This document shows, in pieces, positions 49,057-49,737 of a DNA stretch of 64,000 bases. The stretch comes from Elusimicrobiaceae bacterium. Its GTDB lineage: Bacteria > Elusimicrobiota > Elusimicrobia > Elusimicrobiales > Elusimicrobiaceae. Numbering within the stretch: the first letter of the stretch is position 1; every line of letters starts with the position of its first letter. Where the stretch lies: positions 1 through 64,000 of the forward strand of contig JAGCWX010000020.1 of NCBI GenBank assembly GCA_017961585.1. Reading direction: 5' to 3'. A program made the translations under genes and the position numbers. The notes beneath the pieces were generated by a model. It was not told the origin of the DNA, made no database searches, and saw only the letters and a program-made list of their open reading frames with translations.

Positions 49057-49073
49057 AATACCCTCATTTTTAG

Positions 49074-49106
49074 AAAAAACCCGCATATTTTTATGCGGGT
49101 TTTTTC
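49074..49106 (+). terminator. Intrinsic terminator of the 48457 gene
   Basis: Stem CCCGCAT / ATGCGGG flanked by A- and T-runs, 18 bp after the stop. Confidence 0.9.
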
Positions 49107-49149
49107 GTCGAGAAAAACAATATTTTTAAAAAATTTTTAAAATTACCCC

Positions 49150-49177
49150 TTGACAAATTGAAGTTTTCCATTATACT
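49150..49177 (+). promoter_or_regulatory. Consensus promoter of the candidate ncRNA
   Basis: TTGACA (49150-49155), 16 bp, TATACT (49172-49177), the strongest-looking promoter in the window. Transcription should start near 49184. No convincing reading frame follows. Confidence 0.85.
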
Positions 49178-49183
49178 ATGGGT

Positions 49184-49605
49184 ATGGAAGTTCAACTGTA
49201 GTTCGCTAGGCGTGGTTGGAAAGGGCGAAAGCCCACCGCACTTGAAGCACCTTGTAGGGGCGAGAGCGGTTACCAACGAGTGTAGTTGCCAGCGGTTGTA
49301 GGGTAGTCGCAGTGCAAAGACGTTGGCGGTTAACACGGTTGTTCTGTTGGTTACTTGACTGCTGGAGTCTGCAAGGCGCGCTTAGAAAGCTGTAGTGTAG
49401 GGTTCTGGGGTGTGTGGAGCCGTAGGGTCCGGACGGAACGGACGAGACGGCGTGTTCTGGGGGTTGATGTGTTGCTTCGGCTTGCGGAACATGTACGACG
49501 ACATAAGTCCTGGCGGTAATCCCAGAGGAAAAGGAGTAATGATGAGTAGTTGTAAAATAGAGCAGTAGAACCCCCTTGGTTGGATAAACTAAGGGGGCTT
49601 TTTTT
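49184..49605 (+). ncRNA. Candidate structured non-coding RNA, about 420 nt
   Basis: This 681-base gap between genes holds a complete transcription unit: a consensus promoter, about 390 nt of G-rich sequence, and a strong terminator. Only a five-codon frame (MEVQL) starts near the 5' end. Hairpin features include GGGC-GAAA-GCCC (GNRA tetraloop, near 49223), GC-TTCG-GC (UUCG loop, near 49475) and a GTTGG / CCAAC long-range pair. I looked for the conserved motifs of RNase P RNA, tmRNA, SRP RNA and 6S RNA and did not find them. Identity unknown. It ends 130 bp before an exported-protein gene that has its own promoter. Confidence 0.65.
49570..49605 (+). terminator. Terminator of the candidate ncRNA
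   Basis: Eleven-position stem CCCCCTTGGTT / AACTAAGGGGG (one G-U pair) followed by seven T. Confidence 0.92.
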
Positions 49606-49636
49606 GGCCTTTTTACCCCCTTTTTAAGCAATTATA

Positions 49637-49702
49637 GGCCTTTGGGCCTAGGAATGCCTAGGTCCAAAGACCCTGGAAATTTTCACGTGAAAACTTTAGA
49701 AT
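49637..49702 (+). promoter_or_regulatory. Two-box promoter element H
   Basis: Distal GGCCTTTGGGCC (49637-49648), 12 bp, proximal GGTCCAAAGACC (49661-49672), 24 bp starting CTGG, -10 TAGAAT (49697-49702). A TTTTCACGTGAAAA palindrome lies between proximal box and -10. Confidence 0.85.
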
Positions 49703-49737
49703 AAGTATAGACAGAAATAGAAATTCTGGAGGAATCT

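Follow-up and report, generated by a model that had tools for sequence, protein, structure and literature searches.

A fast-evolving structured RNA of gut and rumen Elusimicrobiota with a conserved 3' mini-ORF and a possible role in ribosome docking

The gap at positions 49057-49737 of the stretch of Elusimicrobiaceae DNA analysed here (the window, 64,000 nucleotides of contig JAGCWX010000020.1) raises the question of whether it holds an RNA gene and, if so, what such an RNA might do. The original prediction had proposed a complete gene for an orphan structured RNA, and our analysis bears out the gene itself, with a near-consensus promoter, a G-rich body (35.1% G and 17.5% C in 49184-49605) and a strong terminator, in which CTTTTTTT lies directly 3' of the terminator-like hairpin 49571-49597 (Table 1). 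The transcription start was placed at about 49184, at the A seven bases past the -10 element. The folding energy calculated for 49184-49605 was -158.2 kcal/mol compared to a mean of -141.0 in 100 dinucleotide shuffles, none of which folded as well (z -3.0). We regard it as very likely that the RNA is real and structured and that it carries a mini-ORF under selection. The gap had also been called the largest of the window, which is correct as long as no gene is assigned to the stop-free antisense stretch 49206-49631 (the next gap measures 379 nt); as a protein gene this stretch was rejected, since the antisense runs range from 82 to 152 codons in 20 relatives and it is the sense strand that covaries. 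Within the gap, upstream of the RNA promoter, lies a strong hairpin flanked on either side by A/T runs (about 49079-49106), which is perhaps a terminator between the gene of a 199-aa protein and the RNA promoter. This protein was present in 8 of the 66 genomes searched, from which no explanation was gained, and none of three proteins near the RNA had a Pfam match.

Table 1. Positions of the RNA gene, its 3' module and its helices in the window, and of the aligned regulators in their loci.
Feature	Position	Strand	Remarks
A/T-rich stretch upstream of promoter, possible UP element	49115-49146	+	Putative function, from sequence
Promoter: -35 TTGACA, 16-nt spacer, -10 TATACT	49150-49177	+	11/12 consensus; -35 at 49150, -10 ends at 49177
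Type 1 RNA, predicted transcript from about +1 to terminator	49184-49605	+	Homologues in 58/66 genus genomes
Closing helix P1, 5' strand	49204-49218	+	A4 helices 1 and 2; 100% and 95.9% of cells paired
Helix 4 (49236-49243 with 49410-49417)	49236-49417	+	5/8 pairs change on both sides
Helix 5, inside helix 4	49247-49261 with 49366-49379	+	8/13 pairs change on both sides
Helix 6, inside helix 4	49265-49271 with 49305-49311	+	3/7 pairs change on both sides
Stem 49419-49423 with 49447-49451; inner stem 49427-49432 with 49438-49443	49419-49451	+	
Most conserved hairpin, GGUUGAU...GCUUCGGC	49453-49491	+	A4 helix 11; double changes in 5/14 pairs, 95.9% paired
Closing helix P1, 3' strand, with conserved ACAUAAGUCC(U/C) element	49496-49515	+	
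Shine-Dalgarno sequence AAGGAG	49531-49536	+	Read directly from the letters
Mini-ORF ATG ATG AGT AGT TGT AAA ATA GAG CAG TAG (MMSSCKIEQ*)	49539-49568	+	
Intrinsic terminator	49571-49606	+	Hairpin 49571-49597; stem starts 2 nt past mini-ORF stop codon
Aligned regulator, window's genome	L226:863-1546		
Aligned regulator	L140:1121-1819		
Aligned regulator	L146:1355-2044		
Aligned regulator	L139:2960-3646		

The proposal that the RNA stands outside known families survived the searches made. At gathering score, Rfam models matched two tRNAs only in the 64-kb window and nothing in the RNA region, while a permissive scan of 49057-49737 returned 34 low-scoring matches, none of them at gathering score; the best of these, weak leader matches, fell on the upstream hairpin (49073-49106), and a few at chance level touched the RNA. 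Likewise, five representatives scanned with permissive filters gave no Rfam match at E 0.01. The covariance model of RNase P RNA (RF00010) had no match at 49184-49605, and neither the tmRNA model (RF00023) nor the tRNA-like domain of tmRNA was found in the region. Both of these RNAs, from which the original prediction had rightly set the locus apart, are encoded elsewhere in the genome (RNase P RNA at G000:C23:22764-23090, 202 bits; tmRNA at G000:C36:33544-33887, 133.6 bits). SRP families had no match in the region, the large form being covered through the Rfam scans only. ROOL, GOLLD, OLE and raiA, which are all present in Rfam, and the other ornate RNAs of that collection gave no gathering-level match, and none at E 0.01 on the five representatives. 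A missing housekeeping RNA could nevertheless hide here, since the small SRP RNA (RF00169) was not found anywhere in the window's genome, and 6S RNA (RF00013), which had no match in this RNA, was found in 0 of the 66 genomes of the genus, while 5 of 14 control genomes were positive. Against these absences stand the Rfam searches, so that a highly diverged member of a known family, for example a large SRP RNA or another ornate RNA, appears very improbable; moreover, we know of no family of the SRP or ornate kind that has a 3' mini-ORF.

The description of the RNA as an orphan had to be abandoned, as it is one of two RNA types that have a promoter style and a 3' module in common. The type found in the window, type 1, is a conserved yet fast-evolving family. 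Nucleotide similarity alone detected fragments in 7 of the 60 genomes searched, the window's own genome apart. Model R1, which covers the 3' domain, had matches in 56 of the 66 genomes of one Elusimicrobiota genus from gut and rumen, and model R2, built from 51 loci, in 60 of the 66 and in 3 of 274 genomes elsewhere in the phylum. These three matches outside the genus (G125, G053 and G254) were weak and on inspection turned out to be coding-gene ends with terminators. Similarly, weak second matches in genus genomes resembled gene ends with terminators (L206, L209, L210, L212, L213 and L214) or a terminator-rich stretch (L215) and were left uncounted. By reading of the individual loci (51 loci, plus six, plus one), type 1 RNA is present in 58 of the 66 genomes. 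Its usual position is downstream of glyS, where R2 detected the RNA in 41 of the 56 glyS loci given to the model; these 56 were drawn from a set of 66 glyS loci, and all 41 positives come from Elusimicrobiota or gut-bacterium records. Among 24 genomes from the family's other genera, the glyS-adjacent DNA of 22 had no such module at the sensitivities used, and two terminators in this DNA had a chance mini-ORF with neither Shine-Dalgarno motif nor promoter. The genomes are mostly MAGs from rumen and gut, named for the most part Elusimicrobium sp., Elusimicrobiaceae or Elusimicrobiales; one Candidatus Avelusimicrobium contig occurs among the glyS relatives, and we infer that Avelusimicrobium falls within the genus of the window. 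All 66 genomes, whose kinship inflates this and all other counts, have at least one of the two types, which makes the housekeeping role originally suggested plausible, although type 1 was not found outside the genus at the sensitivities used.

In the window's clade, which is represented by seven full-length RNAs, the body of type 1 is multibranched and closed by the long-range helix P1 (Table 1). Both sides of the pair changed at 36 of 101 pairs, compared to 18.7 in shuffles, and none of 500 shuffles reached 36. In the same alignment 88.2% of the cells were paired, against 43-47% with the partners slid, but since the structure was predicted from these same seven RNAs the percentage is biased in the structure's favour, and the double-change counts are the stronger evidence. 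Across 51 sequences, double changes were seen at 10 of the 15 pairs that make up the terminator and the inner part of the most conserved hairpin. Base pairs thus covary beyond chance, as is typical of structured non-coding RNAs, and the same was found for type 2, so that the predicted structured RNA also withstood this second examination. The individual hairpins named at the outset fared less well. What had been taken for a UUCG hairpin, GCUUCGGC (49474-49481), does not represent a conserved UUCG tetraloop, given that relatives have GGUUCGG, GAUUCGG or GUUUCGG and that a supported helix, GGUUGA/UCGGCC, extends across the site, while the supposed GNRA hairpin does exist in the window sequence as a GAAA loop, GGGCGAAAGCCC, in place of which aligned relatives have other loops.

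The RNA had further been taken to be purely non-coding, which overlooked a conserved mini-ORF with a Shine-Dalgarno sequence at its 3' end. In every type 1 element read, the tail runs from (A)AGGAG or a similar motif through an AUG and a short series of codons to a stop codon right at the base of the terminator. Among the elements read, the mini-ORF was present in 118 of 119, comprising 58 of 58 of type 1 and 60 of 61 of type 2. An automated test, from which two false R1 matches (L148 and L152) had been removed before ORFs were counted, called it in 99 of the 103 elements examined, the two types taken together, whereas shuffling of the upstream sequence predicts 6% per element; three of the four misses (L090, L092 and L234) were due to misplaced terminators, with the ORFs visible, and only L244 is truly without one. 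The mini-ORFs comprise 4-9 codons, with 5-6 sense codons in 68 of the 72 distinct ORFs. Several type 1 tails contain AUGAUG, and when the second, better spaced AUG is taken as the start, 36 of the 40 distinct ORFs of type 1 comprise exactly five sense codons. In the window, the spacing to the Shine-Dalgarno sequence is likewise more favourable for the second ATG (49542) than for the first (49539), and with eight codons from this second ATG the mini-ORF is longer than most. The stop codon that abuts the terminator was in frame with the last ATG, chosen blindly, in 92 of 96 distinct tails, and in the four that deviate the ORF contains a second ATG in another frame. Codons and stop type differ between species while the frame is kept, with 71 distinct sequences and 64 distinct peptides among the 99 ORFs and all three stop codons in use. 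Because the ORF sequences are so diverse and the two RNA bodies cannot be aligned, this conservation of frame is convincing despite the relatedness of the genomes. In a control set of 497 terminators from 51 related contigs, a Shine-Dalgarno motif with a mini-ORF was found at 36, all of them type 1 RNAs, and the other 461 had 9 mini-ORFs, none with a Shine-Dalgarno motif; nor did any other site of the 64-kb window have the same module. A Shine-Dalgarno-like motif was present in all 54 elements of type 1 for which the automated test had called an ORF, compared to 27 expected from shuffling, and the distance from the AUG to the terminator stem was 15-22 nt in 91 of the 99.

The encoded peptides are not random, as 60 of the 72 distinct ORFs have a last sense codon that starts with A (for K, N, R, S or T), compared to 26 of 72 for the penultimate codon, and a role at the codon or peptide level is therefore possible. 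Their codons are mostly hydrophilic, with a loose bias to K, E, T, S and N, and hydrophobic residues amount to 12.6% versus 18.6% expected from base composition. Such a composition might be expected if a short hydrophilic peptide were the product of the RNA; however, the peptides differ in most elements, derive from no more than 4 to 9 codons and have no signal sequence, which makes a peptide-coding RNA quite improbable. A different use of so short a reading frame is known from the lambda bar minigenes, in which a few codons between start and stop can occupy ribosomes and tRNA. By analogy, translation of the 5-6 codons could tune translation through short peptidyl-tRNAs or peptides, and both the narrow length range and the A-initial last codon agree with this idea. 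In contrast to the bar minigenes, the mini-ORFs described here are chromosomal and lie within a large structured RNA, codon 2 and the inner codons are highly variable, and a covarying body of 300-500 nt would not be needed for such a function, so that we consider a mini-gene of this kind improbable.

Since the tail is common to both types, R1 also drew in the second RNA, type 2. Its body is not alignable with that of type 1, while the mini-ORF tail and the promoter style are common to both, a TTGNNN-16-TATA(C/A)T promoter being present in 99 of 103 elements of the two types together. A hairpin of type 2 had double changes at 15 of 19 pairs (0 of 500 shuffles), and model R3, which was built on this hairpin with the tail left out, had matches in 47 of the 66 genus genomes and in 0 of 274 others. 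The mini-ORF was found in 19 of 20 further R3 matches that had been left out of model building. Altogether type 2 occurs in 62 of the 66 genomes (R3 matches, loci downstream of the regulator described below, and G086); 61 elements were read, G085 being matched and left out of the reading. L244, from G030, is the sole type 2 element read that has no mini-ORF, its 3' end after AAGAGAGGGG apparently being replaced by unrelated sequence.

In 46 of the 47 R3-detected genomes, type 2 follows a gene for a regulator of about 230 aa on the same strand; the exception is G070, with a 2-kb locus that has no tblastn match to the regulator. The regulator has an HTH domain and a Peptidase_S24 domain (PF00717, E 1e-12) and resembles LexA in its C-terminal part. 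Of the aligned regulators, that of the window's genome keeps GDSM, the active-site serine motif of S24, which the three others lack (Table 1). Among 15 genomes with the regulator and no R3 match, 14 had a promoter, a mini-ORF and a terminator in this order downstream of the regulator, with the promoter within about 20 nt of the regulator stop, and in G071 none of these was found there. The type 2 element of the window's genome (G000:C5:213565-213930, corresponding to about 1566-1930 of L226, with the R3 match at G000:C5:213744-213849) has a TTGACA-16-TATACT promoter and a mini-ORF encoding MEQEK, and starts within about 20 nt of the stop of the HTH/Peptidase_S24 gene. With the motifs tested, no excess of Shine-Dalgarno sequences was found in type 2 (19 of 45 elements versus 20 expected by shuffling); its AUG is preceded by weaker GAGAG or GTGAG stretches and in one clade by GGGGAAGGAAA. 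Ribosome docking is consequently less secure for type 2, which probably does the same job as type 1 under other control, beside a LexA-like regulator gene.

The conserved mini-ORF set against the terminator suggests that the RNA works by engaging ribosomes. We tentatively favour, giving it not quite an even chance, the reading that type 1 is a structured and probably abundant RNA of about 420 nt, transcribed from a promoter of its own, which docks ribosomes on a throw-away 3' mini-ORF. The long 5'-3' helix that closes the body would leave a single-stranded 3' tail as the docking site, and since this tail lies outside the closed body it would be free to be bound. Just ahead of the terminator, the tail would offer a Shine-Dalgarno sequence and an AUG, with a stop after a handful of mostly hydrophilic codons. 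A 30S or 70S ribosome would be expected to initiate there, to produce a disposable peptide and to end translation up against the terminator hairpin. The 15-22 nt that mostly separate the AUG from the terminator stem come close to the distance from the P site of a ribosome to its leading edge, and an initiating ribosome would thus fit between its binding site and the hairpin. As the codons change freely while start, frame and stop are kept, being translated appears to matter more than the product, and selection would act on the engagement of ribosomes with the RNA and not on a particular peptide. The purpose might be to tether or load the RNA on ribosomes in a regulatory, hibernation-like or sensing role.

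The same pattern would, however, arise if translation of the mini-ORF only protected or matured the RNA's own 3' end, with the ribosome barring nucleases and the stop codon avoiding non-stop complexes on a Shine-Dalgarno-like tail. The proximity of the mini-ORF to the terminator in nearly all elements, the freedom of its codons to change and the convergent downstream genes all agree with such protection, whereas the AUG and the frame are kept in two RNA types with non-alignable bodies, and most stable structured RNAs need no ORF; we therefore view protection of the 3' end as possible though somewhat unlikely. The stop codon next to the terminator could alternatively belong to an attenuator leader, in which translation of the mini-ORF would control termination and hence the downstream gene, and in the window the next gene (49738) is indeed co-directional. 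Among the 65 R1 loci with a downstream ORF (from 70 tested, including the false matches L148 and L152), the nearest such ORF was on the opposite strand in 49 and co-directional in 16. In place of the conserved co-directional gene that an attenuator would have downstream, the neighbour is thus mostly convergent, and attenuation of it is highly unlikely.

The RNAs are closest in kind to ROOL, GOLLD and OLE, likewise large, structured and independently transcribed bacterial RNAs whose function is unsettled; in contrast to these, types 1 and 2 measure about 330-530 nt, match no Rfam family, have a conserved 3' mini-ORF and are confined to one Elusimicrobiota genus. As in tmRNA (SsrA), a structured RNA has its own short reading frame, but in types 1 and 2 the ORF starts at an AUG of its own and is placed beyond the body, beside the terminator, and tmRNA is separately present. 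Ribosome binding has been reported for GOLLD in a paper on ornate RNAs whose main text does not contain the string 'Elusimicro' (PMC12286853). The mini-ORF formally makes the RNA dual-function, with start, frame and stop conserved whereas the peptide is not, apart from its loose composition bias. Dual-function small RNAs likewise combine a structured or regulatory RNA with a short ORF, typically described with 10-50 amino acids (PMC5521070); unlike those with longer peptides, types 1 and 2 have an ORF of 4-9 codons that lies against the terminator and whose peptide is not conserved. Searches of the open-access literature on structured or small RNAs of Elusimicrobiota, on Avelusimicrobium and on short ORFs in structured RNAs listed no description of this RNA, although a paper elsewhere is possible, and the arrangement of a large structured RNA with a conserved 4-9 codon ORF locked between ribosome-binding site and terminator was not found there either.

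Two RNA families outside every Rfam model thus occur in nearly every genome of a poorly studied gut and rumen lineage. They make the function of ornate bacterial RNAs directly testable, by asking whether ribosomes sit on them, and they illustrate how very short ORFs can be identified through a frame that is conserved although the peptide is not. 6S RNA is a structured RNA that targets RNA polymerase, and types 1 and 2, although they have no match to it, resemble it as structured RNAs that might globally control a core machine. More speculatively, and in our view unlikely as a whole, the two types could form a new class of ribosome-docked regulatory RNAs in which the body regulates or senses, the mini-ORF parks a ribosome against the terminator hairpin, and the RNA has a part in translation comparable to that of 6S RNA in transcription; type 2 would then be linked to a LexA-like regulator and possibly to stress.

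Minor observations concern the sequence of the 3' tail itself. Of 70 distinct ORFs, 20 contain six-base palindromes such as GTCGAC, GACGTC and GTGCAC, compared to 4.9 by shuffling, the instances not being independent because they are mostly GTCGAC and GACGTC in a few clades; they possibly represent an RNA dimerisation site. Terminator loops of both types are frequently TTGGATAAA or TTGAATAAA, and this recurrence suggests that the loop itself may be recognised.
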